A DNA stretch of 64,000 bases, from positions 2,346,010-2,410,009 of the forward strand of contig NC_049981.1 in assembly GCF_000003815.2 (NCBI RefSeq). The letters are read 5' to 3'. A program made the position numbers and the translations under genes. Shown here one piece after another: positions 1-51,781 of the stretch (position 1 is the first letter of the stretch; the number at the start of each line of letters is the position of its first letter). Source of the DNA: Branchiostoma floridae (taxonomy: Eukaryota > Chordata > Leptocardii > Amphioxiformes > Branchiostomatidae). The notes under the pieces are model-generated. The model did no database searches. It saw only the letters and a list, made by a program, of their open reading frames with translations, and had not been told where the DNA came from.

Positions 1-2170
1 ACAAGGAAGACAACTTTTTTTTTTTCATTTGCACGCTCACATCAGTTTGGGGGTTCCCATGGGATGTCATGCCGTATAATCAAATAAACATAGCATGATG
101 TAAAGACAAAGAGGGTGAATATGACCGGCCGGAAGACTTTGTGATCGACGTGTGAGTTTTGGGGTCTATTGTTCTGTTCGACGTTCGGAGACACGCCAAT
201 GAAAATAATCCAGTCGCAAATGTCACGAACTTTCGTCCTGCTAATTTTGTCTAAAGGAAACACTTTACATGAAGTCATAAAAATAAAATGTTTCAGACAA
301 TCCTGAGAAACATACGAGATAATTTTTAAGGTTAACGATCAGAATTATTATTTTTTTAATCCAGTCGCAAATGTCACGATCTTTCTTCATTTCCCCCTGC
401 TAATTTTGTATAAAGGAAACACTTCTTCATGAAGTCATAAAAATAAAATTTTTCAGACAATCCTGAGAGACACACGCGGTAATTTTTAAGGTTAACGATC
501 AGATTTATTTCATATTTCCTGGTTTGCGGGTCACGACGGCAAATATTCGAGCAGTAAATCTCTGTATTTCTCATTTCACCCGGTGGAACTGTTTGTCTGC
601 CTCTCCCGTAACTGTTTGAAAATGACGTCCGACCTTTTTGTTGCCCCATCTGAAGTTTTACGGCCCAGTCTCGTGTCCGGACGACGCCAAGACGATCTGG
701 AATTTCTATGAATTAATATCGAGAACGGCCGAGTGAAAACTATCCACTGTTTAAAGGACTGTAAAGAAGTTTTTATCTTCGACCCAACACATTGAACTCC
801 CACAAATATTTCTTCATGTTCTTACCTTCTTCAGTGCTGCTGGCCCCATAGCTCAGAAAACATGACAGACATCCCGAATGTGGTACGGGTCATAGGTCGT
901 TGGAAGTTGGTATCGGCCCCCGTCTTAGTGTAACGAAAGTCGGCATGCCCTGTTTTGTTGCTTGAAAGATACTCAAAGCGACCACGTATTTTTCTCACAT
1001 ATGGATGCTTTATCCAATCTATGATATTCATTGCTTAATTACTTTATACTTTTTATTTTCTTCTTTAATAAATGACAAGGTATCTTTTAGCAGGTTGAAA
1101 TCTATCTATTGGAATAAACTTCGAGGATGAGAATTGTGTCTGTGACTGCTGTGAACTTTGTATGTTTTATCATTTGTTTGTATGTCTTAATTCGATTCAT
1201 GGAACTAATTCTTGAATCCATCGAGTGACAGAAGTAGCCATAGTTTCAAAATATTATGAATATGTCACTCTTTTTGCCTACCAACTTGCCCAAAGGCAGA
1301 AGAAAAAGAACTAACCCTCCAACCCGCGACTCGGCTGACTTCGCCTTCCAATATCGTGCCCTTACGGCCTCAAAAATGTCTAAGGGACTACCTTTACCTT
1401 TTGTCTGTTCGTTGTATGTGATATAGTTCAAATAAGTTATGAAATACTAAAAAAAAAAAAAAAAAACGCGAAATCGGAGGGAATAACTGATGTAGTTCGG
1501 CCCACCCCTCTTGACTCGCCCGTAGTACAGTCCAAACATCCCCATCGTGCGGCGATTATTAACTCATAACCCTGGAGTGTCGGAGCGGCTCTATACAGCA
1601 GTATAAACATACGGTGGGCGGACAGGGCACTTCTGCGGGCAAACAGGTCTGTATAAAGGCACTACACAACCTGGGCAAGAGTCAGGAGACAAGTAACTGT
1701 TGCCTCGCGTCGCTGCCATCAAAACGTCTTACAAAACGTCTAGGTCTTGAAATCTTGCAAACTTTTTGGTACGTTCTCATCTATCAAATCCAACTTGAGA
1801 TCTCCTCAACCTCTACTCAAACCCGGCCGGTAGGAAGAGGAAAACTGTGACATCTATCCGTGCCGTCGTCGCCGAAAACGTTTCACTTTAGATCTTGCAA
1901 AATTCTAATCTAAAAGACGAAATCTTCGCAGACTTTTCTCAAACCCAGGTGAGAGTCAGGGTTTAAACGAAGTGTATCGGTTTCAAGTCGTCCTGAAAAA
2001 CATCGAAGTCTCCAGATCTTGCAAACATTGTAGGTGCGTATTCAATTCACGCCTGGTAGTCTCGTAACCGAACTTTCTTCAGAGACGCCAAAGTCTTCAA
2101 CTTCTACAAAACGCATACGTTTTCACGTCCAAGTGTAAACCTTTCAGGCATCCTGCGAACCGTCGTACGA
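1..2170. other. Upstream flank of the neuropeptide gene, no gene found
   Basis: No open frame here looks coding. The stretch holds a direct repeat of about 150 bp (206-354 and 357-510). Its first 100 bases resemble the 3' flank of the fibrinogen-type exon at 6.5 kb. A TATA-like TATAAAC at 1602-1608 is a possible core promoter for the downstream precursor gene, which would leave a 5' UTR of about 540 bp. The short phrase ATCTTGCAAA recurs near 1753, 1893 and 2017, so part of this leader is itself built from decayed repeats. The transcription start is an inference. Confidence 0.4.
206..510 (+). repeat. Two-copy direct repeat, about 150 bp
   Basis: Both halves start with AATCCAGTCGCAAATGTCACGA. 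Both then share TAAAGGAAACACTT, CATGAAGTCATAAAAATAAAA, TTTCAGACAATCCTGAGA and TTTTTAAGGTTAACGATCAGA in the same order. The copies differ by scattered substitutions and one short insertion. The unit has no coding capacity and no recognised family. Confidence 0.8.
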
Positions 2171-5065
2171 ATGTCTGCTATGAGCTGGTCTGTGTGGGTC
2201 TTACTTCTGGCTGTGACAGCGAGCTGTCAGGTAAGTTCCTGTTTATATTTAAGATTGGTCATGTACTGCTTCACATGTTTTAATTCATTGGTATGACTGC
2301 GTTGCATTTCTTGTTGTTGCATTCCTTGTTTTGCATTTCTTGGCACAGTTAAGAACACATGCACTAACGTACTAAGTGCCCTAAAGTCGCAAAATCATCC
2401 CTTGCAGATGATGTGTTTTTTTGAGAGGATGTTTATCGATGGAAAGAGTAAAATTTAATGTATTATCTGTCTTCCGTCGTTTCCCCGGCCTAGCTAGTAC
2501 TGATTATGACCGTTACATGCACTGCGCATGCAATATGACGACAGTATACTGTAATATCGCGGCCAGTGTTACCAGTATAGTAAATCCGCAATCGGATACT
2601 CTATGTATATACTTTTATAGTTCTGCGTTTGCCCCAAAGTACAAGCTATGGATGGTTGCTCGAAGTTGTCTTCATAACCGAGACATATGCCTTAGTCAAT
2701 CTGACTTTAATTTTGAACTTCAACTTCAGTTATTATATTTCAGATGTTAATACTATGGCAGCTGTAGACAGATTGTATGTTTACAAGGCACTTATAGTTG
2801 GATCAGAACGATTAGGAACGTGCAGTACGTGTTTTATAAGAATAAAGCAGCCGACAATTCTCAAGTACTTTTGTCCAGTGTTCAGTCCACGGTTACTATA
2901 GTAGTTGTGTGCAGCCGGTCTTTTCACATATCGCTACTTAAAGGATCCTATTGTAGGTTTGAAACGTTCTACATACAATGCGTGCCTCTTAAGAATAAAA
3001 AAAATACCTATCGTGTGAGTATTAAACAAAGGACCTGTTAAATGTAAGTTAACTATTGACAGCTGGTATGGTCACAGGGTGGCTATGGTAATAATGGAAT
3101 GATTAGAAAGTTCTACAGCACATGCCTTAAACTTTCAAGTTGTGGCGCACTAAAACAGCTGACCGGCTATTAATAAGATCCCATGGTTATGGCTATGGGG
3201 CTAGGTGAGCGGGTACAGGCAACATACAATACACAGTTTCAGGATATTCAACAAAAGTTGCTTATTGTTATTTCGTGTTTTTCACTCCTTTTTGACAGGC
3301 TGCACCCAGTGTGGTCTCTGATAACGAGAGTCTCGTGAGAAATGGCGAGATAGATTTGGACGACCGCATTTCACCTGTGGGGTGGACAGGTGTCGTAGAT
3401 GTGCTGCCACCTGACCTGGCACCCCTGCAAAACAATGGTAAGTACCGAGAAAGGAATATTGTCGTCAATTGAAATGAAGAATTGAAAATGTATAACAACG
3501 AGACGTGCAGATTCTGAAAAGTATTTCTTGTAATAGTCTGCTTTCTTGAAGGATAGTACAAATGTATTATCATTATGGAGGTTTTTATCAATTTGTTAAC
3601 AGCTATTAACACATTTTCACCAACATTTTCAGCTGATTCATTCAGTGTACCAAAGAGGCAGCAAAACCCACGCGACCCAATCCGGAACGGAAAGAGGCAG
3701 GACAACCCACTGGATCCAATCCGGAACGGAAAGAGACAGGACAGCCCATTGGATCCAATCCGGAACGGAAAGAGGCGGGACAACCCACTAGATCCAATCC
3801 GGAACGGAAAGAGACAGGACAACCCACTAGATCCAATCCGGAACGGAAAGAGACAGGACAACCCACTAGATCCAATCCGGAACGGAAAGAGGCAGCGCAA
3901 CCCGCTTGACCCAATCCTGAACGGAAAGAGGCAGCAAAACCCACTCGACTCAATCCGAAACGGCAAGAGGCAGCAAAACCCACTCGACCCGATCCGGAAC
4001 GGCAAGAGGCAGCAAAACCCACTCGACCCGATCCGGAACGAAAAGAGGCAGCAAAACCCACTCGACCCGATCCGGAACGGAAAGAGGCAGCAAAACCCAC
4101 TCGACCCAATCCGGAACGGAAAGAGGCAGCAAAACCCACTCGACCCGATCCGGAACGGAAAGAGGCAGCAAAATCCACTCGACCCAATCCGGAACGGAAA
4201 GAGGCAGCAAAACCCACTCGACCCAATCCGAAACGGCAAGAGGCAGCAAAACCCACTCGACCCGATCCGGAACGGAAAGAGGCAGCAAAACCCACTCGAC
4301 CCAATCCGGAACGGAAAGAGGCAGCAAAACCCACTCGACCCGATCCGGAACGGAAAGAGGCAGCAAAATCCACTCGACCCAATCCGGAACGGAAAGAGGC
4401 AGCAAAACCCACTCGACCCAATCCGGAACGGAAAGAGGCAGCAAAACCCACTCGACCCAATCCGGAACGGAAAGAGGCAGGACAACCCACTCGACCCAAT
4501 CCGGAACGGAAAGAGGCAGCAAAACCCACTCGACCCAATCCGGAACGGAAAGAGGCAGCAAAACCCACTCGACCCAATCCGGAACGGAAAGAGGCAGCAA
4601 AACCCACTCGACCCAATCCGGAACGGAAAGAGACAGGACAACCCACTCGACCCAATCCGGAACGGAAAGAGGCAGGACAACCCACTCGACCCAATCCGGA
4701 ACGGAAAGAGGCAGCAAAACCCACTCGACCCAATCCGGAACGGAAAGAGACAGGACAACCCACTCGACCCAATCCGGAACGGAAAGAGACAGGACAACCC
4801 ACTCGACCCAATTCGGAACGGAAAGAGGCAGCAAAACCCACTCGACCCGATCCGGAACGGAAAGAGGCAGCAAAACCCACTCGACCCAATCCGGAACGGC
4901 AAGAGGCAGCAAAACCCACTCGACCCAATCCGGAACGGAAAGAGACAGGACAACCCACTCGACCCAATCCGGAACGGCAAGAGGCAGCAAAACCCACTCG
5001 ACCCAATCCGGAACGGAAAGAGGCAGCAAAACCCACTCGACCCAATCCGGAACGGCAAAAAGTAG
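2171..5065 (+). CDS. Multi-copy amidated neuropeptide precursor (PIRN-amide type)
   Basis: Three exons give a 543-residue preprohormone: 2171-2230, 3299-3437, 3633-5065. Each junction is GT-AG and the phases agree (0, then 1). Exon 1 encodes a signal peptide: MSAMSWSVWVLLLAVTASCQ, with a hydrophobic core and a small-residue cleavage region. Exon 2 is an acidic spacer. Exon 3 opens with a short linker ending in KR, then 36 uninterrupted 13-residue units, consensus Q(Q/D)NPLDPIRNGKR, and a stop straight after the last unit (GKK). KR is a prohormone convertase site. The preceding Gly is the amide donor for PAM, and the leading Gln can cyclise. The predicted product is therefore pyroGlu-(Q/D)NPLDPIRN-amide, secreted by neurons or endocrine cells. 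I do not recognise the peptide family, and a C-terminal Asn-amide is unusual. A poly(A) signal follows 211 bp after the stop. Confidence 0.9.
3659..5062 (+). repeat. 36 x 39-bp coding tandem repeat encoding the peptide copies
   Basis: The array is exactly 1404 bp with no indels, so the reading frame is kept throughout. Twenty-four units begin QQ, ten QD, one QR (unit 7) and one RD (unit 4). Units 1-8 carry most coding changes: R for L in unit 1, S for N in unit 3, ILN in unit 7, S for P in unit 8. Unit 10 has Glu instead of Gly before KR, so its peptide should not be amidated. Later units differ almost only in QQ/QD and in synonymous sites, which suggests homogenisation by unequal exchange. 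Because the unit is 13 codons with no stop in several frames, the array also creates long spurious ORFs on both strands. Confidence 0.95.
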
Positions 5066-5281: not shown

Positions 5282-6067
5282 GTAAAGGCGAAAAAGAAGA
5301 GAGAGTGTCTTGAGTCTTGATTTTCGACTTAAGTTATGATTTAGATAAGTCTTTTGGTTGTATGTAAATTTTGGTGATTTTCAAAACATGCAAGTGAACC
5401 CCTTGAGCATCATCTTAACTATCTATGACCTTGTTATTAATATGACGTTAAACAGTAATCGCTCTGTCGGATCTTGACCTGAGCCCGGACCAGTGCCCTA
5501 TGACGTAGTAAGAAACAACAACCGTGATGTTGTCAGTTTAGTTCAGTTTATCCTCAGTCAACAGCAAACGCCCGATGGGACTTTGGCTTACGTAAATAGA
5601 AGTAAAAACGTCATATATGTCCACGTATATGTAGAATGGTAACTTACTCCAGGGCCACACAAATTACTAGTTACGATGGCAGTTTTTGGCGCAGTAAAAA
5701 GATTTGCTCACTCAATAGGGTGCATTTCCCTATTTTTTCACTAAGCGGCGCCACTGCACGGGTTAAGTCATCAAAATGCCAGAACGTCATCATAACAGCA
5801 TCGTACAGTGTAACGTATCTACCTACCTAGACCCTTGACCTCCAGGTCGTAAATTGTAAACAACAGTGTAAACTACTGTTTGGTAAGATATACCATGAGG
5901 ATAGGGCGGAACATGACTAACTTAGTTAACGAATTGTCAGCCTTAAAATTGCAGTCACACGATATGTAGTCTGGCACTGACCACCTGGTACAGGCAATTT
6001 CAGGTCATATAAAAACAGTCATGTCGTCCATTTTAGGTCTTCAGGTTAACTCTAATTGTGTATTCAG
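5282..6067 (+). other. Intergenic stretch, nothing recognised
   Basis: There is no convincing coding exon. I looked here for earlier exons of the fibrinogen-related domain that follows and found none. Confidence 0.5.
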
Positions 6068-6430
6068 CAACAAGGTACCTACCTGAACAATCAGGCCTTC
6101 AGTGCTAAGGACGTGGACCGTGATGCATGGCATCCCGGTTCGTGTGCCAGCGGCCGCAGTATCGGAGGTACAGGTGGCTGGTGGTATAACTACAAGGCCT
6201 GTTCCTGGTCTTCCCTAAACGGTCCGTACTTACGCCCCTCCGATCGCACTGCAGCTGCTTATAGCGGCTGTGGTCTCTACTGGCACACTTTTGGTGGGCC
6301 TTATGATTCCTATCTGAAGAGGTCCAAAATGATGGTTCGTCCTGTTGACTTGTTGAATTCAAAGAAGAATTGTGAAGAAACAAGACTGAAGAATCTATTG
6401 TTTAGCATCTATACCCCTGATGGAGTTTAG
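6068..6430 (+). pseudogene. Orphan terminal exon of a fibrinogen-related domain (FReD)
   Basis: A 3' splice site (TTGTGTATTCAG) precedes an open frame of about 120 codons. It matches the C-terminal third of fibrinogen C-terminal domains: the YLNNQAFSAKDVDRDAW calcium-loop region, the Cys after WHPGS, GGWWYNYKAC, SSLNGPYL and the closing MMVRPV. Family FReDs act in secreted lectins, ficolins and tenascins. About 30 extra residues follow VRPV before the TAG. No upstream FReD exons are visible before it, and the neuropeptide gene intervenes on the same strand. It is either a decayed or duplicated exon fragment, or a terminal exon spliced from far away. There is no ATG in frame at its start. Confidence 0.6.
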
Positions 6431-7811: not shown

Positions 7812-8008
7812 TACTCTCCAAGCAGAGGTTAGGCTCCGGCTGTTTTTTAGTCGTTTTATCGGGCTTTCTATTTTTTTTATATCTTATTGTGTCAAAACCT
7901 AATTGCTGGCGTACTTCAAGAAAAATGACAAAATAGAAAGCCCGATAAAAACGACTAAAAAAAACGTTTAAAAAAACAGCCGGAGCCTAACCTCTGCTTG
8001 GAGAGTAC
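7812..8008. mobile_element. Fold-back MITE, CTCCAAGCAGAG terminal repeats, 8-bp TSD
   Basis: Inverted arms of about 60 bp begin TACTCTCCAAGCAGAGGTTAGG and continue through GGCTCCGGCTG. The right end carries the reverse complement. The direct flanks CAAATCTC (7804-7811 and 8009-8016) look like an 8-bp target-site duplication. There is no transposase. A relative with the same termini lies at 31.83 kb. Confidence 0.75.
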
Positions 8009-9370: not shown

Positions 9371-9405
9371 CGTGAGGTCAGCCGGTCAAAGGTCAGCAAG
9401 ATGGC
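9371..9405 (+). promoter_or_regulatory. SUOX proximal promoter/leader with NR half-site and YY1-like start
   Basis: TCAAAGGTCA resembles a nuclear-receptor half-site of the HNF4/ERR type. It is followed at once by CAAGATGGCGGC, the classic YY1 core-promoter motif overlapping the start codon. Nearly the same arrangement occurs at 31.66-31.69 kb. The regulatory role is inferred from motif knowledge only. Confidence 0.4.
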
Positions 9406-12400
9406 GGCGGCGCGGGCTGTATTGACGTGTGGACGTGTTTTTGCGCAATCAGCTGCTTCTTACAGCACCAGGTGAGTCCGTAAAACGCACCTGGGCAGGT
9501 GTAAGGTACGGGGAAGAGGCTTCAGAGATCTAAACACCTGTGTCTTAGTCTTAAGTGAGAGTGACAGTGGTGTAAACGACCTCAACATGCAACACGTCCG
9601 CCAGGAAAATTTTTACCTTAGAAATTCCTTTGGATAATTAGTCCGCAATAATTATGTGTGATTACGTGATTTTCCTTAATCTTCAAGAAGGAAAACCGTT
9701 TCCGAATGACACTGATCTAGGTTTGGCTACAGATAAATATATGGAAGTGACAGCTTTACTAACTAGTAGTAGATCTGCTTTATCTACGCAGAAACCGCAC
9801 AAATATTTATTTTTTACACACCCCGCCGCAGACAGTTCAAACAAGGAAGTTGATGCCTTTTTCAACCTCCTTGTACTCGCTGCACTAAAAGTCTTAATTT
9901 TTTTCAAAGAGTGACAGACGAGTAAGTAGACAAACTCAACAACTCTGCCAGGAAATTTACCTCAGAAATTCCTTTGGATGATTAGTCCGCAATTATGTGT
10001 AATTTTCCCTGGCGTAAATTCAAGAATGGAAAGTGTTTCGTAACGTTATATGAAACTGATCTACGTTTTACTGCAGCAAAACTTGTTGTTGTTGTCCTCA
10101 TTTAACGTCTATTATTTCGCTAGACGTGGCCTCTTGGTGCTGAGTAGCGCATGGTTCGCTTTTGAGTTAAGAGTCTCTCTTGGTATTTAACTCTTGGTTC
10201 CTTGTGCTTGAGAGTTGCTGGAGGAGTTTCTAGGAGAGTACGTCGAAACGGTGTGTACTCTCAATGTACTGGGAGAAGGCCATGTACATCTGTTTGTTGA
10301 AACATGTGAAACTTGTGAAGTGACTGGAAGTGACAGCTTTAGATCTGCTTATCTGTGCAGAAACCACACAAATATTTATTTTAGTTTTTTACACACCACC
10401 ACAGACAGATTAGAGTTCTTCGGTTATACTATAAGTATGATTGTCACTCCGGTTTAGAACTTTTCCACACCTGTGTACGTTTTTCCTGCCTGTAGAAACG
10501 ATGAAGGGAAGTTTTAGGTCTGACACACACGTCACTCCTTAAGCAAACATCAGTCTCAACTTTAAAAACAATCTTTCAGTTTTACCAGTATGAAAGTTCA
10601 TCAGTGTTGCTGACCTATTATTCAACTTATTGGCAGTTGAATGGGGGTAAAGTCCAGGTCGGTGTAACCTGTGAGTGGCGGACATGCAGGGGTCGGTAGG
10701 ACAGAGGATGACTATTTACCCGGATACACATGTACTAGTAGGCTAGCCCAGGTACAGGGCTTTCGCCAGCTCGAAATTTTTTTCCGTCAGCCAATTCCCC
10801 TTGTCGCGAAAACACTATTCCAGGAATTAGAGAGACTGAACTGAGACCTTGAAAAATGGGTTTTAATGAGATTATCGTATGCGAAAGGGCACCGACACAC
10901 ATTGTCAACAATCATAACAATAGCAAAACAGTGTGTGGCTTTTACGGCCGTGGACAGCGTCCCCAAGCAGCCTGTAGCTTCCACCAAGGAGCTTTTATCA
11001 GATTTTTGTCCGTCAAGGGTGACGGATTGTTATAAAATTTTTTCCGTCACATGCAGCAAATTTCCGTCAATTGACGGAAAAACGGACGCTGGCTAGAGCC
11101 CTGCCCAGGTACCATCCTATTTGATCGAGCTCCTTGCACTCGCTGCCCTAAGAATTTTTCTGTATTGTAAGAATTCAGAGGGGCCAGTAGGAACAGAATT
11201 GCAGAAAGAAACAAACATGCCGACACCCGGGATCGAACCCGGGGCGGCAGATTACAACCCAGCAGCGAAACCACTGCACTAGAAAAGGCTTACAGTATCT
11301 TATTTTTTTTCAGAGTGACAGATGAGTAAATAAACAAACGCAACACGTCCACTAGGAAATTAATCTCAGAAATTCCTTTAGATAATTAGTCCACAGTTAT
11401 GTGTAATATTTCCTGATGTTGATTCAAGAAGGGAAAGTGTTTCGTATATGTATCAGTATGATTATGAAATTGATTGGCTGCAGCTAAACTTGTGAAGTGC
11501 CTTGTTGTCGTTGTCCTTGCTTAACGTCTATTAACGTCTATTGGCGTTGTTTGTGGTGTAACTGGTAGAGCGATACACGCCGTGCCCCCAACGTTGTGCC
11601 CTTGGGAAAGCCACTTTACACGACCTTCCTCACTTCACCCAGGTGTAATAATGGGTACCTGACTTCGGTTGTGGAGGTAAAAGGAATGAGTACCTTTACC
11701 TTCCGTCTGTACTGAGTGCAATGCCACATAATTTGTCCTCGTCTGTCCAGAAAGCGAATAGAAAAATTGTCTAGATTTTTTTATTTCACTAGACGTGGTC
11801 TCTTGGTGCCGGATAACACATGGTTCAGTGACTGGATATGACTGGGTCTGACTGGATGTGACAGCATTAGAACTGCTTACCTGTGCAGAAACTGTACAAA
11901 TATTTATGTTACACACCACAGCAGACAGGTCAACCTTTACTGGCTTTAGCGTAGATTAGAGCAAGGACGTTGATGTAACGTCCTTGATTAGAGCAAGGAG
12001 GTTGATTCCTTTATCAACCTCCTAGATTAGAGGTTTTTTAGTTAGGTATGATTGTCAATCCAGTTAGAACTTTTCCACACGTGTGTACGGTTTTCCTGCC
12101 TGTTGAAATGATGAAGGGAAGTTTTAGGTCTGACACACGAGGTTTAAGCAAACATCAGTCTCAACGTTAAAAACAATCTTTCAGTTTTACCAGTATGAAA
12201 GTTCACCTGTGTTGGTGACCTGTTATTGGGAGTTTAATGGGGGTAAAGTCCAGGTCAGTGTAACCTCTGTGTGGCAGACATGCCGGGGTCGGTAGGACGG
12301 AGAATGACTACTGTGAATGCAGAAATGTTCGCAATGGTTTTATGTTCGCGTTTTTTTGCGGTGGCTACTTCACTGAGAATTTAAAACAACCGCAAACATT

Positions 12401-14329
12401 TTTCCACGACAGTAAGAGACTACAGTGCATGGCGCTACCACAAACTTAATACCACCGCGAAAATACTTTTTCCCGCTACTGAGAAATCAAATCCCCACAA
12501 ACTTAAATGCATTACAGTATTTACCTGGATACACATATAGACCCCATTTATGATGCAAAAATCAAAACGGTTCTCTATCCATGATTTAGCCTTACGATCA
12601 GAAAACAGTTTGCATTTTGCGTTCACGGTCGATGTAAACTTGTGTGGATATTTTTAAGCAACATGCTTTGTCTGTTTTTTGTGGTCTTTTTAAAAAAATG
12701 TATAATATGTGGCCCTGGGAACAAAAAGAAACACTAGGATAGTACAAAATACACCAGGACGGTGGCAACCAGAGATGACTGTAAATGATAGCAAACATGT
12801 CTGTAGGCAGGGAAACAGTAAATTCTGTGTCAGCGTAACGTGTGTATCTCATGATCAGCCATACCAGGTTTGAAAGGACAGAAGTACAAGTGTGGTCCAA
12901 TCCTACGTACCTTCAGCTTTCAGGAGAGAACGCCTAAGTTTTAAACAATTATACAAGTCCAGACGTGCTTTGCTTATGTCTCGGGGGACTTCAAATTTGA
13001 CATATTACTTATGCTATAGTGCATCAGACTTCTCTTGCTCAGTTGCAGTCACTGCGAACCAGCTTTTGTCCCTCTGCAGGTCGGCAGGGAAGACCCCCCT
13101 CTCCCAGAAGTGGACTGTTCTGCAGCAGACGGTAAGACAGAATGCTCGGCGCTACACCACCGGTCAGGCCGGTCGGGCGTACGTGTGGCCAGCCACCGCC
13201 GTCGGCGTCGCCTGCGGACTCGCGGTCGGAACGACCCTCTACCTGAGTCAGCGAGAGAAACCCGTCGGCGCCAAATCTGTCCCTACCTTCGAGCACGACC
13301 CAACCCCGGGCGGATTCCGTACGAACTTACCGGAGTTCTCACTTTCAGAGGTGGCAAAGCATAAAACGAAGAATGACCGCGTCTGGATCACCTACAAGTC
13401 CGGTGTCTACGACATCACAGAGTTCCTGGAGAGCCATCCGGGCGGTGCATCGAAGATCATGCTGGCTGCGGGCGGTTCTGTCGAGCCGTTCTGGGCGATG
13501 TACGCCGTGCATAAGGAGAACCCAGAAGTCTTCGAGCTCCTCGAGCCGTTACGCATAGGAAACATCAGCAAGAAAGATCTCATCGAGATGCAGCAGACCA
13601 AGAAGGCCGATCCGAATGACCCGTTTGCGTCCGAACCCGGTCGCCATCCGGCGCTGGCTCCAAGCTCGAAGAAACCGTTCAACGCCGAGCCACCGCAAGA
13701 GCTGCTGGTGGATAATTACATCACGCCTAACGAGCTGTTCTTCGTTAGGAACCACCTGCCTGTACCACAGGTGAGTCATACTATCACTTTGCCTCCCACT
13801 TACATACAGGAATGCATATACAAGTATCATGTTTCAGTAAAAGTATCAAAACAAAATTAAGTCTCTTGTATATTTCTTGACTGTCAACATATAAAAAGAA
13901 AGAGTTTGATGCATGTTATCATGTGACAATGCTTATATATATGTACTCAACTGTTTCATAATGTAAGTTAAATCCGTGAGCAGGCTTTTAGCCGGGCATT
14001 TGTCCATGCGTTTGGACGAACTGTTCTAAAAATAATGAGAAATTGGACGCACTAGGATCCTCTGACAAGCATAAGTTTCTGATTGATCAGGGATGCCACT
14101 TGTGGTCACACTCATCACAGTCTTCTACTGTGACCTGTTTGACAGTAATTTAGCCCCTCAAGATATCAATTAGAATGCACCATTTTGACTTAAACTCTGC
14201 ACCATGGAAGGTGGATGCCCCTGGACCCCCTTACAATATATCACTTGTTTCGACTCACCAAGAAATTTGGACCCTTATTACAATATGATCCTTGCTAAAA
14301 GCCTGGCCATAAGAAATGAATTGGAAATA

Positions 14330-14366
<37 letters not shown>

Positions 14367-17300
14367 CAGGTGGACATGAACAAGTACGTCTTGACAGTCG
14401 GAGGCGAGGGTCTGAAGAAGCACTCCTTCACCTTGGATGATCTTAAGGAGAAGTTCAAACATCGGAAGATGGTGGCCACGATCCAGTGCGCCGGGAACCG
14501 CCGATCCAACATGATGGAGGTGGGGCTGTTTGTTTGTTTGTTTGTTTGTTGAGATGCCCACTTGCAATTCACATTGTCTGGAAACCTTTAATATAACACA
14601 TTTTTCCACAGCAAACATGTGAAACATTTATTATTGAACACTGTGTGTTTTATGAATAAACTTTAAGCCTTACATGTAGAACAGAATAGGAAGGAGAGAT
14701 GTTGTTGCTTAGATTTTGAGCCCCTAGCACCGTTCTGTGGAACTGCAGCAGAATATCATACATGTATTTTGTAGATTTACCTGTTTTGGTAATGCGAAAG
14801 TCAAGGGGCATGAAATCCAGTACAAAATGTAAGACTTGAGCCCCTAGCAAGCTTCTCTGGTATTGCAGCAGAACTTGATATATTTTGTTAATAATTTTCC
14901 AGGTGAAGAAGATTAAGGGTCTGAGTTGGGGGATCGCAGCGATCAGTAACGCTGAGTGGACGGGCGTGTACCTGAGCGACATTCTCGCGCACGTCGGACT
15001 GTCCGACCCAGAGAACCGCGGAGAACTCAAGCATGTGCAATTTGAAGGTCTGGACCTGGACCCGGAGAGGGCGCCGTATGGAGGTTTGTTTCTTTTGCTT
15101 TTTTGTTTGTTTTTTAAGTAGAAGCTGTGTAACAACGGATTGTAATAAGTCTTGATCCACTCACAAGTTAGGAATGCATGTAATGATGATCATTGTAGTG
15201 CTATCTTATGTTGTAAAATCAATGCAATTCAGCCCCTACAGGGGCTGCAAAGTTGATTGGAAATAAGGTTGCAAAGAATGCCCCCTTCTCTTTTTGATGA
15301 GTGTGGAAGGTTCCAAACTCGAGGTGCATGTGGCTCTCCTCATACATGGGATCTACAGCTTTTATATGGCTTTTTGTCTGAGAGGATGTTCCTTCAACTG
15401 AAGGAAGGTATTCATTTTCATGTGAGCCGAGGGAAGAAGCAGTTGTTAAGTGTCTTTCCCAAGGGCGTATTATTGTGACCTGCTAGGGATTGGAACTCGA
15501 AACCTTCTGAGTCAACACCCCTTATCACAACACCACCCTTCCACAGGTTCCATCCCGATTGAGAAGGCGTTGGATCCGTCGGGTGACGTCCTGCTCGCGT
15601 GGGACATGAATGGAGAACCGCTCTCACGTGATCACGGTTTCCCCCTCAGGGTCATTGCGCCAGGAATCATCGGCGCCAGGTCAGTTCCGAAGTTCCAGTT
15701 GGCATAGTTTGATTTTTCCCCCAAACTCTTTCAACCAGCACGTTTCTTTCTGGGGGTAACTATGTGTTAGAATATGCAGCTTGTGATATTTTTTGTGTGC
15801 ATAATCTAGTCAAGAATGTCTTGTTTTTTGTTTTTTTCTTTGTTAATTTGTTGTTGGCAGAAGTGGCTGTGTAAAGTTTAGGCCATCCCAGATGAGAGTC
15901 TGTCCCTCTGTATTAAGTTTGTTTATTTGTTTGTTTGTTTGTTTGTTTGTTTGTTTTAGGCAGGTAAAGTGGCTGAGCAAAGTTTGGGCCAGCCCAGACG
16001 AGAGCCCGTCTCACTGGCAGCAGAACGACTACAAGGGTTTTGCTCCGCAGGTAGACGTCTTAAATTGTTTTTAAACAATTAAAAGAAACATCATAATGAA
16101 TGTAGTTATACATAGTTTTAACTATGTATAACTACATTCATTATGATGTTTCTTTGAGTTGAGTCGTAAATGCCTTGAAGTTCACAGGGATTTGATTTTG
16201 CAGTAGGGTGAAAATGGAGTGCTTCTGATTTCTATACTGAAACAATATGGGGTTGGTGGACAGAAGACAACAATGTTTTTTATTCAGTATAAACATGAAT
16301 CCTTATCACAAGATGTTAATAACAAACCACTTAAGACTTATAAACAGTAGTAAGTAATCTAATAAAACAATTGCATAATAACTAGCATTGAATCATTGAA
16401 ATTAATCATTTTTGACAGTACATGTACACATCAAGCATTTTCACAGTTGTTTTAAGTTCGCTGTCACTGCAAAAGTTGCGAACATTAACCCACCATCAAC
16501 ATATATATTGTCAGTAATACCTTCTTTCCTGTTTGGAGATGCTTTTAGTAAGTATGATACAGTACTTTTACATTGTACTTTAAAGCCTGTGATCAAGTAG
16601 ACTAGTTCATCTTAAGGTCTTTGCTGAATAAAAGAAGTTCATCCTCCTCCTCAGGTGGACTGGGACTCTGTGGACTTTAAGAAGTCCCCAGCGATCCAGG
16701 AGTATCCTGTCCAGTCCGCCATTTGTGAGCCGAAGGACGGAACCGTGTGGGACGATGAAGAGGAGGTGAGATCACCCCCGTATGCCACTCGAATGGTCTG
16801 GGTCATGTGCAGATTCAATTGGATATGGACCACGCCATCTGATAATTGGGGGATTGGCATTTTTTATTCCGTTTAAGATTTGTTAGGTTGTAGGTAGCTT
16901 TTTGTGGAACCCCCATTTAGGAAGTGAACTGATCTGAAATTGCACAGTTTGTTGTTGGTTGTTGCTGCCTTGTTGTTAACCGTTGCTACTTACAAATGTA
17001 AAGTGTTGTTGTTTACCTGTTGCTAGGAGACAGTGAAAAGGTTATGTGTTGTTGTTTACCTGTTGCTAGGTGACAGTAAAGGGTTATGCGTACAGCGGCG
17101 GGGGTCGGGAGATTATCCGCGTAGACGTGTCGGCGGATGGTGGGAAAACGTGGCACCCCACGGAGCTGGTGGCAAAACCAAACCAGGGCTACAACCGCAC
17201 CTGGGCCTGGACACTGTGGGAGGCCAGCGTGCCTCTACCGAAGGACGCTAAAGGTCAGTTATTCATTTATAACCATTTCCTTATTTTGTAATTGTTTCCT

Positions 17301-21893: not shown

Positions 21894-24800
21894 TTACTGA
21901 CCCCCTTGGCTAGTCCCTGGAATCCCGACATTAGCCTCTGGAGCCCCGAGTGTGTTCTTAATCTTCCCCATCAGTTCTTGGTTCTCGATGATCTTGTTGA
22001 CTACCTCCGAAGTGATGGGGACGCTGATCTGCTGCAGGTACCGCTCCACCAGTTGGCGGTCCTGAAGGGGGGTCCAGAAGATCCTCTCGATGCTGTCGAG
22101 AGCCTGTTGGTTCTGTAGAACCCCTTCTACAGTCTTGGGCGTTGCCTGCACCCCCATGCTCGACAGGTACGCCACGACCATCTGATGTTTATCAGCATTC
22201 CCAACTGAAACCTTCTCTACTGTCTGGGTATTCAGTGTAGAAGTCTGCCCTCCTGCGGAGGTACTTGGCACAGTCCGGAGCATTTCTCCATCCACAAATG
22301 GTTTCGGATTTCTAGTTTTCATTCCCAATGATTCCTTTTCATTTCCTGATGTCACGTCGATTATGACTTTGAAAATCTCCTCTGTAACTTGGACACCATC
22401 GTCGGACAGAACGTGCTGGCACATCTGCCGGACTCTCTCTCTTGCGACCACGGTTTTCTTGGGCAGACAGTCTACCGTAACTCTCCGTAAGAGTTGGAGT
22501 TTCCAGACAGACCCAGGAGGCAGTTGCAGGTGCTGTGCCAGCTGCTCGACCATCTTGTCATTGTTCTGTCCATCTCTCCAGACAGACTCAGACTTTCCCT
22601 TCAGCTCTTCTTCAAACGTGTTAATCCTGTCAACAACCTCCTCCTTCATCACTTCCCCATAGGTTCTCTCCACAAAACCAACCAACTTCTTACAAAATGG
22701 TAATAAAATTACAGTGCCTTCCCTGGTCTCTCTCAGGGCACCTGCAAAGTTTTGGGTGGCTCTTTGTGAGGCTGGACCAGGCAGCGCCAGGGTACTGACT
22801 GGTTGTGACTGCTGACCAGTTTGAACTAACAGGTAGGCTGGTTTACCTTCGGAATACAGAATGCCTGCCTGACTTACAGCTGGGCTTGCTGTTGTGCCCT
22901 GCTGTACACCGTGCTGTGTCCCCTGCTGTGTGCCCTGTCGTGTGCCTTGCTGTGCGCCCTGCTGTGCACCCGTCAGTGTGCCCTCTTGTGTGCCTTGTTG
23001 TGCGCCCTGTGACGCAGCTAGGTGTCGATGGGCCATGGTGTTCCTGATGTTATGCATGACCTGCTCATTCTGCAGTATCCCGCGAATCCCCTCCTCAGTG
23101 GCGGACATACCCTGCTGCTGCAGATAGGTCTTCACCATGTTCCAGTCCTCCCAGTTCTGGGCTTGGCCCATATCTTGAGACTTTGTGGCCCAACTGGTTG
23201 AGTTTTGGCCCATTTGCTGTCCCACAGCACTTGGAGCCTGTAGAGGCCACAACTGGGTGCTTGCAGTCTGCTGTTGTTTGGGGAAATATTTTGGGCCTCC
23301 CATCTCTCCTGGGCCCTTTTTGCTGCCTCTGGGACTTGGACTGTCACTTCTCTGTCGCTTTGCACTGTTTTGGCTGTTTCTGCCAGTCTGTAATGGTTTA
23401 TCTGGGATGTTGTGATGACTGGATTGAGACCTGTTTTGAGAACGATCCCGTGACAGACCATGACTGCTGGATCTGTGATCTCTTCTTTGACTCTGAGTGC
23501 TGGACCTATGATCTTTACTTTGACTTTTACTTCTGGATCTGTGATCCCTTCTACTACTGGATCTCTTATCTCTACCTTGACTTTTGGATCTGTGATCTCT
23601 ACCCTTGTTTTCATTACTGGGTCTGCGATCCCCTCTTCGACTGCTGGATCTATCCTCTCTACTCTGACTCTTGGATTTGTGATCCTCTTTCCTACTTTGA
23701 CTGCTAGATCTATGACCTCTATCCTGGATCTGTCTACTGGATCTCTTATCTTTGCCTTGACTCCGACTGTCAGATCTGTGATCCCTTCTCTGACTTTGGC
23801 TGTTGGATTTTCGATCTCTATCCTCCCTGCTACTCTTCAGGCTTTGATCTCTATCCTGTTTTTGGCTCTTACGTCTGCTCTCATCTCTGTCACTTCGATC
23901 CCCTTTCTCTGGTTCTCTTCCAAACTTGTCTTTTGCAGAGGAGCTTAGACTTTCTCTTCTGGGCTCCTGTTGAAGTCTTTTCTTGCTCCCAGGTAAATCT
24001 GTCCTTTCACTGTAAGAATCTCTCCTCTCTTTGTCCCTGCTACTAGTTTCATCACATGAGCTCAAGATAGTCCACTCATCTGCCCATGCCATCTCAGGCT
24101 GACTCCCTTGTGCAGCCCCACTGCCTGTTGTGTCTCCCTGTGCAGCCTCCCTGACTATGGCACCCCCCTGAACAGCCCCCCTGCTTGTGATCCCCCCCTG
24201 TGTCATTCCACTGTCTATGGCATCACCGAGGATGTCTGACAAGCACTCTTTGCCCCTGTCCGATCTGTACTGGTCCTTCTGCTGCAACAGGAAAGGGCTG
24301 GGGGTTCGGCTGATACTATGGGGAGGATTATCACCATGGATGCGGTCACCATGGAAACCTTGACCAGCAATTGGTCTTGCATACTCTTCATGGGGTACAG
24401 GGGCAACTCGCCGATCATATTCATCCAGGGCAGAGTGAGGACTTTGGTCTGGTGGCAAATTGCTCAAGTTCTGGAGCGTCGGCTCCTCCCTTCTGTCGCT
24501 CCCCATGTACGGAGCATCGCGTCTATCTGGTGGAGACTTATCGTGGGCCAGTGACCCACGTGCAGGATCATCTCCATAACTCCCTGCAGCTTCCTCAGGT
24601 CTGTATGGCTCTCTATGTCCATCGGCTGAGGCGTCTCTTCTGTATGGATCATAGTGGAACTCATCTTCTTCCCCCCTTTCCCTGGAACGGCTTCTTCCCC
24701 GCCGGTCCTCATTGTATCGTGGCTGCCGTCTGTAGTACGTGTCTCTCACATCTCCTTCACGTGACCAATCACGTGGTGCTGTGTCATCAGGGTGCGTCAG

Positions 24801-27701
24801 GGGACTGTCATCACGGCGAGGATCTCCATGGCGACTCCTGTGGTCGTACTGGGGAGGGCTCCTGTCATCATTGCGATGGTCTCCATAGCGACTCTTACGG
24901 TCATACTGGGGTGGGCTCCTATCGCCATGGAAAGATTCGGGACTCCTGTCCCTCCTGCTCTCTGATGTCATCGGCAAACTTCTATAATCTACGTCATGAT
25001 TAGCTGACATCTGCTGCTCAATGTGGTCTCCGTGGCGATCAGCCTCCAAGTGGGGGGCTTCTCGCAGGGCCCGCTCATCATCCAATGCTTTCCTCTCCTG
25101 AGCTAGACGCTCCCACTCTTTCTGCAGCAGCATTTTCTCAGCAGCAACATCCAACTGCGGAGCACCTCCCAATGTCTGCCCAGTCTGTGGCTGTAACTGT
25201 GACTGTTGCCCTGGTGGCTGAGGCCACTGCTGTTGCCCTGGTTGCTGAGGCCATTGCTGCTGTCCTGCTTGTCGAGGCCATTGCTGCTGCCCTACTTGCC
25301 GAGGCCATTGCTGTTGTCCTACTTGCCGAGGCCATTGCTGTTGCCATGCTGGCTGAGGCCATTGCTGCTGTCCTGCCTGCCGCGGCCATTGCTGCTGTCC
25401 TGCTTGCCGAGGCCATTGCTGCTGTCCTGCTTGCCGGGGCCATTGCTGTTGCCATGCTGACTCAGGCCATCGCTGCTGTCCTGCTTGCCGTGGCCATTGC
25501 TGCTGTCCTGCCTGCCATGGCCATTGCTGTTGCCCTTTTTGTCCCCATCTCTGTCCAATCTGTTGATGCTGCCCTCCCTGCTCCTTTTCACGCCACTTCC
25601 TGCACCGTTCTAACCTCTTAGCACAAAACTGCTGACTGTTAAATGCTCCCAGGTCCCCTACAATGACTTCGCTTATTGCTAAGAACTTGGACCCAAACTC
25701 CTCCCTTAACAGATTTTGACAGAGTTGCCCAGTTTTCTGACGGGCAAACTCAGTTTTCTTTGGCAAACAGTCAACGACAACCCTCTTTAACAGTTGGAGT
25801 TTCTGGACGGAACCTGAAGGCAGGTTCTGTTTGTCTGACAGCTGCTCAATCATCTTGTCGGTCGGGTGCCAGTTTGAGCAATCCTTCCCGTTCAGCTCCT
25901 CTTCAAACTCATTGATCCGCTGCTCGACCTGGAACTTCATTTTCATTGGGTAGTTTCGCTTTGCCAGTGAAATCACCCTTTGAGCAAATGGTTCTGAGAT
26001 CAAAGAGCCTCCCCCCGCTTCTCTTTGAGACCCAGCAGGTTGTTGGGTGGCTCCTTGTGAGGATGCACCAGGCAGGGCTGGTTGTGACACCTGACCGGTT
26101 TGATCTGAAACTCTGCCTGGTTCTTGTACGGCTGAGTTTCCACTTTGCTGTGCAGCATTTTCCGGGGTCTCTATGACATTACCTGCATCCCCTGCTATGA
26201 CTCCGGTTAGCGTGAAGAACTTGGGACCAAACTCCTCCCTTAAAAGGTCTCGACAGAACTGCCAAGATTTCAGCCACGCGGTCTGATTCATCTGCGGTAA
26301 ACAGTCAACGACGACCCTCTTTAACAGCTGGAGTTTCCACACAGAGCCCGAAGGCAGTTGCTGTTTAACTGACAGCTGATCAATGATCTTGTCGGCAGGG
26401 ATCAAGTTTACGCGATCGTTTCCATTCAGCTCCTCTTTAAACTTGTTGATGCGTTGTGCAACATTGAACCTCATCCTTATAGGGTAGTTTCTCTTCACCA
26501 GTGAAAGCAACTTCTTACAAAATGGTTCTGAGCATAAACTGCCTTCTGAGGTTTCTTTTTGGGCGGTTCCTTGTGAAGACAGACCAGGAAGGGCTGGTTG
26601 TGTCGACTCCTGGCTGGTTTGATCTGAAACTCTGTCTGGTTCTGGTAAGGTTGGGTTCCCGCTTTCCCCTGCGACATCTGTTGGGAGCTTTACGACAGTT
26701 GTTGCATTCTCTAAAATGACTGGGGTTAGTGTGAGGAACTTCAGCCCAAACTCCACCCTCAACACCTCTTGACAGAACTGTTGACATTTCTGATATGCCG
26801 TTTTAGTCTTCTTCTGGAAACAGTCGGCAATGACTCTCTTTAGGAGCTGGAGTTTCCACACTGACCCTGGAGGTAGCCGATGTTGGTTTGACACCTGTTC
26901 GAGTATCTTATCGCCTGGGTGCAAGTTTACGCGATCATTTCCACTAAGCTCCCACTCAAATTTGTTTATCCGGCATTCCACCTTGTATTTAGACCTAATC
27001 GGGTAGTCTTTCTTCACCTGTGCGAGCAACCTCTGAGCAAACGGTTTTAAGATCAAAGAACCTTCCTTGGGTTCTTTCTGCGTACCGGCATAGTGTTGGG
27101 TGGTTTCTTGACCGGTTTGATCTGAAACTCCACCTGGTTTTGGTGAGAATACGTTTTCAGTTTGCCGGGTGGGATTTTTTGGGACTGTGACAAAAATGAC
27201 ATCTAGCGTGTCTGGGATGTTTTGCTGCCTGATTTCCCCCTGCAGGACTTGCTCACACAAAATGCGAGCTCTCTCTCTCTGGAAGGTATTATTTATTGAG
27301 AGGCAGCTTGTAATCACTCGCCGTAAGAGACGGATTTTCCACACAGCACCAGCAGGAAGCTGAAGACGCTCTGCCAACTCGCGGACTAACCTGTAGTTCT
27401 GCGCACCCACCCAAGGAAGATCTACACTTCCTCTCATTTCATCTTTAAACTTGTCGATAAAGTTCCCAACTCTTGTCTTTCTATTTGCTGTGTAGTTTTT
27501 CTCCATCAAAGTAAGCAACTTCTGGCAAAATGGATCTTGGAGTAAAGGGCCTTCTGGCATGTTCAGTCCTGGGCTGTCTTGCCCCGGCCTGTTCTGCTCC
27601 CCTGACATGTCCTGGTCAGATCTGGTAGACTCTAATGTCTCCTGATCCAACTTGCTGTCCTCCTCACTTTCCTGTGTCTGTTCTTTTTCCACATCACCCA
27701 T
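21894..27701 (-). CDS. Intronless RS/RD-rich protein with five repeats of an unrecognised domain
   Basis: A single open frame of 1935 codons. Residues 57-170, 219-333, 392-506, 570-683 and 1668-1783 are copies of a ~115-residue, probably helical domain. Its hallmarks are PF(C/A)(K/Q)(K/R)L, RIN(K/T)FE.EL, DK..(E/D)QL and LP.GSVWKLQLL(K/R)RV..DCLPK. Copies 2-4 also share a VSDQTGQ linker. Between copies 4 and 5 lie GQQQWPRQA repeats (about 723-831), D/R/S-rich sequence, an RS/KS block (about 1290-1430) and GTQQ repeats (about 1567-1606). A ~35-residue motif, YLQQxGVxxTxExVxxILxNQ, occurs at about 1520, 1841 and 1886. The RS content suggests a nuclear, RNA-associated protein. I do not recognise the family. 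It is paralogous to the gene at 51.8-57.1 kb. Lack of introns over 5.8 kb is odd beside intron-rich SUOX and SAFB. Confidence 0.88.
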   Translation of the reverse strand: MGDVEKEQTQESEEDSKLDQETLESTRSDQDMSGEQNRPGQDSPGLNMPEGPLLQDPFCQKLLTLMEKNYTANRKTRVGNFIDKFKDEMRGSVDLPWVGAQNYRLVRELAERLQLPAGAVWKIRLLRRVITSCLSINNTFQRERARILCEQVLQGEIRQQNIPDTLDVIFVTVPKNPTRQTENVFSPKPGGVSDQTGQETTQHYAGTQKEPKEGSLILKPFAQRLLAQVKKDYPIRSKYKVECRINKFEWELSGNDRVNLHPGDKILEQVSNQHRLPPGSVWKLQLLKRVIADCFQKKTKTAYQKCQQFCQEVLRVEFGLKFLTLTPVILENATTVVKLPTDVAGESGNPTLPEPDRVSDQTSQESTQPALPGLSSQGTAQKETSEGSLCSEPFCKKLLSLVKRNYPIRMRFNVAQRINKFKEELNGNDRVNLIPADKIIDQLSVKQQLPSGSVWKLQLLKRVVVDCLPQMNQTAWLKSWQFCRDLLREEFGPKFFTLTGVIAGDAGNVIETPENAAQQSGNSAVQEPGRVSDQTGQVSQPALPGASSQGATQQPAGSQREAGGGSLISEPFAQRVISLAKRNYPMKMKFQVEQRINEFEEELNGKDCSNWHPTDKMIEQLSDKQNLPSGSVQKLQLLKRVVVDCLPKKTEFARQKTGQLCQNLLREEFGSKFLAISEVIVGDLGAFNSQQFCAKRLERCRKWREKEQGGQHQQIGQRWGQKGQQQWPWQAGQQQWPRQAGQQRWPESAWQQQWPRQAGQQQWPRQAGQQQWPRQAGQQQWPQPAWQQQWPRQVGQQQWPRQVGQQQWPRQAGQQQWPQQPGQQQWPQPPGQQSQLQPQTGQTLGGAPQLDVAAEKMLLQKEWERLAQERKALDDERALREAPHLEADRHGDHIEQQMSANHDVDYRSLPMTSESRRDRSPESFHGDRSPPQYDRKSRYGDHRNDDRSPPQYDHRSRHGDPRRDDSPLTHPDDTAPRDWSREGDVRDTYYRRQPRYNEDRRGRSRSRERGEEDEFHYDPYRRDASADGHREPYRPEEAAGSYGDDPARGSLAHDKSPPDRRDAPYMGSDRREEPTLQNLSNLPPDQSPHSALDEYDRRVAPVPHEEYARPIAGQGFHGDRIHGDNPPHSISRTPSPFLLQQKDQYRSDRGKECLSDILGDAIDSGMTQGGITSRGAVQGGAIVREAAQGDTTGSGAAQGSQPEMAWADEWTILSSCDETSSRDKERRDSYSERTDLPGSKKRLQQEPRRESLSSSAKDKFGREPEKGDRSDRDESRRKSQKQDRDQSLKSSREDRDRKSNSQSQRRDHRSDSRSQGKDKRSSRQIQDRGHRSSSQSRKEDHKSKSQSREDRSSSRRGDRRPSNENKGRDHRSKSQGRDKRSSSRRDHRSRSKSQSKDHRSSTQSQRRDHRSSSHGLSRDRSQNRSQSSHHNIPDKPLQTGRNSQNSAKRQRSDSPSPRGSKKGPGEMGGPKYFPKQQQTASTQLWPLQAPSAVGQQMGQNSTSWATKSQDMGQAQNWEDWNMVKTYLQQQGMSATEEGIRGILQNEQVMHNIRNTMAHRHLAASQGAQQGTQEGTLTGAQQGAQQGTRQGTQQGTQHGVQQGTTASPAVSQAGILYSEGKPAYLLVQTGQQSQPVSTLALPGPASQRATQNFAGALRETREGTVILLPFCKKLVGFVERTYGEVMKEEVVDRINTFEEELKGKSESVWRDGQNNDKMVEQLAQHLQLPPGSVWKLQLLRRVTVDCLPKKTVVARERVRQMCQHVLSDDGVQVTEEIFKVIIDVTSGNEKESLGMKTRNPKPFVDGEMLRTVPSTSAGGQTSTLNTQTVEKVSVGNADKHQMVVAYLSSMGVQATPKTVEGVLQNQQALDSIERIFWTPLQDRQLVERYLQQISVPITSEVVNKIIENQELMGKIKNTLGAPEANVGIPGTSQGGQ
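25200..25530 (-). repeat. Coding 27-bp repeats: GQQQWPRQA array
   Basis: About twelve 9-residue units, GQQQWP(R/Q)(Q/P)(A/V/P), lie within the RS protein. The array is nearly in-frame perfect and is the source of several spurious ORFs on the opposite strand. Confidence 0.85.
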
Positions 27702-28154
27702 GGCGACGCTTCACAGCCCCACCCTTCCTGCCCTGTGACAAAGGAACAAGTGTCTTCAAACTTTCACTCAAGGCAGAGACAACACTCGAGAAGCCCCTTG
27801 CAGAATTGTCCAGTTTGTACCCTCCCTGTCACATCTACCTGCAGGTAGCCATACATGTGTAATTTTATGACTAAAAGTCCGAGTCATGTGACTCACAACT
27901 TAGTGATGGCATCTGTCAATCATCGTAGGATGCCCGCCAATCCCTGCACACAGCCCGCGTGCAGGAGGCTCAAGTTCACTGTTGCTTTACTGGATGTTGA
28001 TTGGCTTCTCTCTGACAACTTTTGTCAGTGAACTGTGAAGAAGTCCTCAGCAGTTGAACAGCGTTTTCTTGCTGAAAATTCCTTCTCTGGAGGACCTGCA
28101 AAGAAAAGGCAGAACAGAGTGAGGGGTGCATACATAACATGGCAGGAGCAGCTA

Positions 28155-50726: not shown

Positions 50727-51781
50727 GAGTTGATGACTGTTGGATACTAGTACTTGATTTACACCATTAGCTATAACACAATTTGTAAGTGCAGTTTTGG
50801 TTATTTGGTTGCTACTACAATACACTCGCAGGCACACACACTATAACACACACATACATACATACAATATATATGTAACATATACAACACACAATTTACA
50901 AGTAAATACAAGTTGTGATGATAGAATATCCTGTTTGTTTTTGTTCTATCTACATGTGTCGGTTACTGTTACGTTATCTGACTCTGAAGATTTCACCTTT
51001 CAAATCATTCTTTTTACTTTTCAGGATGAAAGGCTCAGTTCCCATATAGCATACATTACTGTGCGCAACTTACAGAATGGTTCAAAAGTAGCTGATGTCT
51101 TTTGTATACCAATCTATTTGTTATCTTCTGCAAGTTGATCATGGAAAGAACATTTACTTACATATACTTGTTGGTATCCCAAACAAATTTATGCATTTTC
51201 AGCATTTTTCACAGCTAGCTTTGAACCCTGCTGCATTCTGTGTCCTGGCATGGTAGTTCCCTGGATGCTGCAGTCATGTGACTGTTATATGTTAACCACA
51301 TGTTAATCACATGATGGCCACATGACAGCAGGCCCTGCCATGCCCTGTGCCACAGTTAGGGTCTATTTCTCACACTATGCTCTGCTTGGTTTTGCAGGAC
51401 CAATTGGCAGGAATTTTGTTTCTGCCTGGTGACCATCCTTGACGGCAAACAAACAAACAAACAAATATTCAGCACAGCCAGGGTGGAAGTCCATACTCCT
51501 GCCATGCTGTGTGTTGATTAAGTGCATGTGTCAAGCTCGCAGCGTGCTAACCAAATGCAGTAGTTTTGGTCAAACTTCTCACAAAGCCACTGGGACAACT
51601 TCATAACAGGAGAACCTTTAGGTCGCACTCTGAGGACACAACTGAAAAACCCTCACACTTTGAAACTCCTGCATGTAGCTCCGAATCAAATGACAACATC
51701 CAGTCTTCATGATGGGATTCCACCACTGTAGCATAGAACTCTGAGTCTGAGAGCTTGCTGATCTGAAGTCTGAGAAGCAGC

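Follow-up and report, generated by a model that had tools for sequence, protein, structure and literature searches.

The gene described here, in a window of 64,000 nucleotides from Branchiostoma floridae (the whole stretch of DNA that was analyzed), probably encodes a secreted multi-copy prepropeptide for a neuropeptide or hormone, the predicted product being pGlu-(Q/D)NPLDPIRN-amide. This product had been proposed in a preliminary description of the locus, and we keep it as the reading of the repeated unit. As judged from its sequence, the gene is very likely a true precursor of multiple amidated peptides. It forms a branch of a small family of lancelet peptides that we could not match to any named family. 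Precursors of this kind are known, and what may be new is the peptide sequence family. The features of the gene and its closest relative are collected in Table 1.

TABLE 1 Features of the precursor gene (window positions) and of its paralogue
Feature	Position	Strand	Detail or basis
Two TATAAA boxes, possible core promoter	1602-1607, 1652-1657	+	Sequence and pattern scan
Coding exon 1, signal peptide MSAMSWSVWVLLLAVTASCQ	2171-2230 (60 nt)	+	Donor GTAAGT, phase 0
Intron 1	2231-3298	+	GTAAGT ... TTTGACAG
Coding exon 2, acidic spacer AAPSVVSDNESLVRNGEIDLDDRISPVGWTGVVDVLPPDLAPLQNN	3299-3437 (139 nt)	+	Donor GTAAGT; phase 0 in, phase 1 out
Intron 2	3438-3632	+	GTAAGT ... ATTTTCAG
Coding exon 3, short linker ending in KR, 36 peptide units, and stop codon TAG	3633-5065 (1433 nt)	+	
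Array of 36 x 39 nt, Q(Q/D)NPLDPIRN-G-KR	3659-5062	+	TRF and unit tally
Unit 10, Glu in place of the donor Gly, predicted non-amidated	4010-4048	+	Unit comparison
Polyadenylation signal AATAAA	5276-5281	+	Pattern scan
Exon of paralogous precursor	C14:6059411-6060655	-	Best E 4.1e-11, 48-51% identity

The three exons join into a single frame of 543 open codons, encoding a precursor of 543 amino acids, with GT/AG borders and introns in phases 0 and 1; the gene model of the preliminary description, with its agreeing splice phases, is thus borne out, as are the signal peptide, the spacer, the KR sites, and the Gly before nearly every KR, all of which are visible in the sequence. The signal peptide in exon 1 was judged by hydropathy together with its in-phase donor, against every ATG in the window on both strands. 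Of these 2382 ATGs, 1069 are open for 18 codons and 31 are equally hydrophobic, and the 2 that also have an in-phase GTRAGT donor both belong to exon 1. A possible minor start, the ATG at 3575 in intron 2, reads in frame into exon 3, but its hydrophobicity is 1.77 versus 2.6. The spacer exon, used as a query against the whole genome, matched only itself. Upstream of the coding sequence, in the presumed 5' untranslated region or promoter, ATCTTGCAAA occurs in three copies (at 1752, 1892, and 2016) and is absent from the rest of the plus strand of the window.

The third exon is dominated by an array that Tandem Repeats Finder (TRF) placed at 3652-5055, with 36.0 copies, 94% matches, 0% indels, and a score of 2339. 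The units are 13 residues long and lie head to tail, and all 36 close with a dibasic site, KR or KK, the last ending in GKK followed by the stop codon. Gln stands first in 35 units (the exception is unit 4, with Arg), the amide donor Gly precedes the dibasic site in 35, and 34 units have both; the exact sequence Q(Q/D)NPLDPIRNG is found in 30. The exception with respect to Gly is unit 10, which has Glu before its dibasic site, and so the 36 amidated copies of the preliminary description become 36 units of which 35 are predicted to be amidated. Units 11-14 and 16-19 consist of four unit variants in identical order, the trace of a block duplication within the array. A search of the genome (513,431,437 bases in 431 contigs) with a degenerate DPIRNGKR pattern, outside which units 7, 8, 10, and 36 fall, gave 32 matches, all inside the array, and the reversed-pattern control gave none.

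Tandem arrays with a period divisible by three easily stay open, and the minus-strand frames of this one are also long, which would fit a dead gene or a minisatellite whose frame is open only by chance. The pattern of variation among the units makes that reading very improbable. In the coding frame pN/pS is 0.21 (35 units, the last being excluded); four other frames give 2.0 to 7.3, and the minus-strand frame that has its third positions in common with the coding frame gives 0.29. Synonymous changes make up 11 of the 21 distinct single-site variants, where the null mean is 6.0 and at least 11 were reached in 0.48% of 20000 simulations; the 10 nonsynonymous variants include the Q-to-D change, counted as two, and eight that are each confined to one unit. 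This excess of synonymous change in the coding frame argues against a noncoding or decayed array, as do the signal peptide and in-phase donor of exon 1, a stop codon that comes only after unit 36, and a paralogue on C14 that itself varies mostly silently.

If the gene is expressed as modeled, the signal peptide would be removed, a prohormone convertase would cut after each KR, and a carboxypeptidase would trim the basic residues. Glutaminyl cyclase would then close the N-terminal Gln and an amidating enzyme would convert the Gly, so that each precursor might yield pGlu-(Q/D)NPLDPIRN-amide in 30 copies together with six variants. The predicted [M+H]+ values of the two pGlu/amide forms are m/z 1176.612 and 1163.580, and these masses make the peptide directly testable. 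The copper-monooxygenase model PF01082 has 72 matches in the genome, a number that cannot single out the amidating enzyme. Once released, the mature peptide may serve as a neuropeptide or hormone, and its receptor would probably be G-protein coupled. Alternatively, the same processing enzymes could produce a secretion made in bulk, for example, for defense, mucus, or reproduction. The very high copy number and the near identity of the units would fit bulk dosage, and two antimicrobial peptides from scorpion venom likewise end in IRN-amide (PMC4344621, excerpt). On the other hand, the peptide is short and carries one Asp and one Arg, which leaves it about neutral and sets it apart from cationic membrane-active peptides, and its predicted pGlu and amide ends are, judging from sequence, typical of receptor ligands. 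Overall, a role in bulk secretion appears unlikely. The preliminary description had also regarded 36 copies as a very high dosage; as a claim of rarity this is too strong, given the exact precedent of the Antho-RFamide precursor of the sea pansy Renilla, which likewise encodes its short amidated peptide 36 times (PMC7266959, in part). That peptide is a different one, from another phylum, and the likeness is one of architecture only.

The window gene is not isolated, because a paralogous precursor on C14 and a related cluster on C3 share its genome. A genome search with six units from the window gave 47 matches, of which 9 lie in the array itself, 3 fall in the C14 precursor, and 35 are weaker ones elsewhere (E values of 2.9e-4 and up); among these 35, the three on C10 were inspected and proved to be a simple repeat without KR units. 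A control query in which the letters were rearranged within each unit, with NGKR kept, missed C14; its best E was 0.85, and of its three matches two were the array itself. In line with the first search, the C14 sequence used as a query found the window array back with a best E of 1.7e-9. The homology between the two genes rests on an eight-residue core. Without gaps, 6 of the 10 residues before the Gly are identical between the window peptide and the C14 peptides, the common core of the two genes being PLDPIxNG; this number was reached by 187 of 200000 shuffles of the QQ form and 218 of 200000 of the QD form of the window peptide.

The C14 exon encodes 16 units of the form DPLSPI[V/S]NGQ-G-KR, with a pN/pS among the repeats of 0.077, and also the single peptides TPLDPIENGQY, SSPLHPMENGQF, LPLLSPIENGQL, and GVLSPIENGDYQ, as well as two stretches with a pair of Cys residues that end in Gly and basic residues. 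A candidate signal-peptide exon, MKTTVIAAAALCLLATTFAAPTGKHE, lies 11.6 kb upstream, ends in phase 0 with the donor GTAAGA, and was chosen as the best of three; exons may intervene. We propose the name PLxPIxNG for the family, after the core PL[D/S/H]P[I/M]xNG that precedes a dibasic site, by which the searches join the window gene and the C14 gene.

The C14 query also found five related peptide places between 350 and 394 kb on C3, with E values from 4.5e-6 to 1.5e-4 and 60-67% identity to C14 over about 42 residues; a further match, at C14:2589932, proved to be an unrelated tandem repeat. All five C3 exons encode [W/L]PLLSLIRNGQF-KR ([W/L]PLLSLIRNGQFKR). Four of them have a LLSPIANGQGNR-like stretch upstream, which is exact in two, ends in GNR instead of a dibasic site, and is missing from the fifth exon, at 359 kb. 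Compared with two C3 peptides alone, the window peptide shows no significant likeness (15761 and 11830 of 200000 shuffles). Five signal-peptide exons of the type MLFPVALVLCLCSMQAAGL lie among the C3 places. First-exon phases differ within the proposed family, being 0 for the window gene and for the C14 candidate and 1 for the C3 cluster. Under the splice rules used, no spacer or linking exon shared by the five C3 genes was found, and the phases seen there do not join directly. A Cys-pair peptide of the type QYDCSVDGTCDALGNGFP-G-KR occurs both in the C14 gene (6.06 Mb) and in four of the five C3 exons (350-394 kb), and the C14 gene has a second one, CLWDPSDSICF-G-KKKR. A Pfam search with the C14 protein (its repeats shortened) and one C3 cluster protein returned nothing significant, and the only PDB match by sequence to the C14 protein had an E value of 0.092.

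Among named families, the pedal peptides and orcokinins invite comparison. Like the window gene, their precursors hold many copies between dibasic sites, and the peptides have a local PLD-x-[I/V] (PMC5860471 and PMC4772807, excerpts). Given this core, the window gene could be a divergent, shortened member of that family, which would change its family name and is compatible with a secreted precursor. QQNPLDPIRN aligned with the Aplysia pedal peptide (sequence taken from the excerpt of PMC5860471) with a score of 19, equaled by 10 of 4000 shuffles (P of 0.0024 with 5000 shuffles), values that are uncorrected for the 16 comparisons of the 4000-shuffle set and the 28 of the 5000-shuffle set. In addition, both share the multi-copy KR architecture, and a lancelet pedal-peptide-like precursor aligns in register, PIDSIYGG over PLDPIENG (AAPIDSIYGGIGLPISGKR and others). 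Against the lancelet pedal-peptide-like set, however, 201 of 4000 shuffles did as well as the window peptide, and of eight family peptides that were compared, five gave 6.7% to 50% against that set and 20% to 51% against Aplysia. A profile comparison with hhalign gave a probability of 1.5% and an E value of 0.033. Genome queries at E values of 10 or below with the Aplysia and the lancelet pedal-peptide-like sequences missed both the window gene and its C14 paralogue among the matches listed (18 and 4, respectively). Moreover, the window peptide is shorter, its units end in PIRN-G-KR with a predicted Asn-amide, and it is missing the C-terminal SGFx seen in Aplysia and sea urchin (PMC5860471, in part). 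With neither the profile comparison nor the genome searches joining the two, the link to pedal peptides is weak, and membership seems rather unlikely. A separate precursor of the pedal peptide/orcokinin-like kind lies on C14 near 12690531-12691076 (extracted locus L051, 1351-1989, minus strand) and encodes AAPIDSIYGGIGLPIS-G, ASPIDSILGGNGLPIMN, SSAPIDAIIGGRGLPMSY, and others, mostly bounded by KR.

The Arg-Asn-amide end raises a different comparison. In vertebrates, neuromedin U carries PRN-amide at its C terminus (PMC7749107, excerpt), and homologues of the ecdysis-triggering-hormone receptor are substantially expanded in Branchiostoma (PMC6660194, excerpt), so the window peptide might be the lancelet ligand of receptors of the neuromedin U/ecdysis-triggering-hormone type. 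A genome search with the Pfam neuromedin U model gave five weak matches, the best with an E value of 0.75 over model positions 6-20, and no convincing precursor among them. No PRN-G-KR was seen in the listed frames around the two matches that were opened. Two of the five do pass the curated bit cutoff, so a neuromedin U precursor elsewhere in the genome is possible. The window peptide itself shares the Arg-Asn-amide terminus of the PRXamide peptides (PMC7749107, in part) but is without PRX and without an aromatic residue, ending in DPIRN-amide with its Pro one place early (I-R-N in place of PR-x). Its paralogues, furthermore, end in NGQ-amide, NGQY, NGQF, or NGQL, without RN-amide. The neuromedin U reading is accordingly improbable.

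The preliminary description had called an Asn-amide terminus rare. Such ends are indeed uncommon. Corazonin ends in Asn-amide. Other precedents make the claim of rarity too strong: apart from neuromedin U and the two scorpion venom peptides, a predicted copepod PDH ends in IRN-amide (PMC5655441, excerpt), and Antho-RNamide of sea anemones, which has the terminus [I/L]-R-N-amide in common with the window peptide, ends in LRN-amide (PMC7523074, excerpt). Antho-RNamide differs, however, in that its precursor has one copy, placed immediately behind the signal sequence, and in its phenyllactyl N terminus, whereas the window gene has 36 copies after a spacer, with an N-terminal Gln (PMC7523074, in part, for the former). 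The letters R-N-G are also common to the NG peptides and neuropeptide S, and the B. floridae NG peptide precursor contains two copies of SFRNGVamide (PMC5860471 and PMC5818035, excerpts). In that peptide NG stays internal to the mature product, while in the window units the Gly is the amide donor before KR (same excerpts for the former). A pattern of FRNGVG followed by two basic codons has three matches in the genome; its backward control gave four, so single matches carry no meaning, but on C4 two of the matches are separated by 153 nt in one frame, both reading KRSFRNGVGKR; the lancelet NG peptide is thus present in this genome, as fits a lancelet of the B. floridae type. Hits of the genome searches lie on C1-C19 and a few contigs of higher number, in keeping with 19 chromosomes (PMC7269912). 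The window peptide compared with SFRNGV gave a P of 0.21 and the C3 cluster peptide WPLLSLIRNGQF an uncorrected P of 0.025. The neurophysin domain of invertebrate NG precursors had no Pfam match in the window precursor, shortened to 11 of its 36 units. The defining features of the neuromedin U/PRXamide, Antho-RNamide, and NG peptides are thus absent from the window peptide.

Returning to the reading of the gene as a branch of the PLxPIxNG family, comparison of the paralogues suggests how its Asn-amide end could have arisen. In the C14 peptides a Q (or D) and more residues come after NG. Set against PLDPIENGQY-KR, the window form PLDPIRNG-KR is best explained by its having lost the two residues behind the core NG, the direction of this change being an inference. 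The window gene has KR directly after NG, and so the Gly becomes the amide donor and the Asn the amidated end. Tentatively, there may be a chordate PLxPIxNG signaling family, with pedal peptides as its possible ancestors, and the loss of the post-NG residues in one paralogue would have given rise to a new Asn-amide ligand, amplified to 36 copies and acting on an orphan receptor of its own; we regard this as possible rather than probable. If true, exposure of an internal Gly would be a simple route to a new amidated C terminus. Lancelets are key to judging which vertebrate peptide systems are old, and if the family has no relatives in other animals, it would provide, as a multi-gene lancelet family, concrete ligands for orphan receptors.

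The suggestion that the peptide matches no family is therefore only partly upheld, in that none of the known families tested claims the gene while related precursors exist in the same genome. The window, C14, and C3 peptide sequences were not found in the main texts of open-licence papers, a scope outside which lie supplements and two 2013 surveys that cover lancelets, and an earlier listing of the precursor in print is quite possible. Text matches to "dpirn" were in papers judged by title to be unrelated, and those to "irnamide" were the predicted copepod PDH and the scorpion venom peptides, not the window peptide. A Pfam search with the precursor shortened to 11 units gave one insignificant match (E 1.3). 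PDB searched by sequence with the array gave five matches, which we take as artifacts of repeats; repeats can inflate E values, and the best of the five, to lysostaphin at 2e-6, is meaningless. Rfam gave no match at the gathering score in the window. Scans of viral and prokaryote contigs gave 1 and 30 pattern stretches, respectively, none of them confirmed, and these collections are without animals, so that the negative scans say little.

Other features of the window lie downstream of the precursor gene. The open frame at 6056-6427 on the plus strand, which had no match in Pfam, bears a presumed likeness (GGWWYNYKACSWSSLNGPYL ... MMVRP) to the last part of a fibrinogen-related domain. At 7812-8007 there is a fold-back element, a 37-nt perfect inverted repeat with an inner perfect pair of 21 nt. 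Two RS/RD-rich open frames, of 1938 codons (21897-27710, minus strand) and 1792 codons (51767-57142, plus strand), match each other at an E value of 2e-66 and form an unnamed paralogous pair, neither having a Pfam match at an E value of 0.01. A sulfite oxidase gene occupies about 9400-17300 on the plus strand, its extent judged by eye, and positions 13081-13770 match sulfite oxidase structures with an E value of 5e-49.
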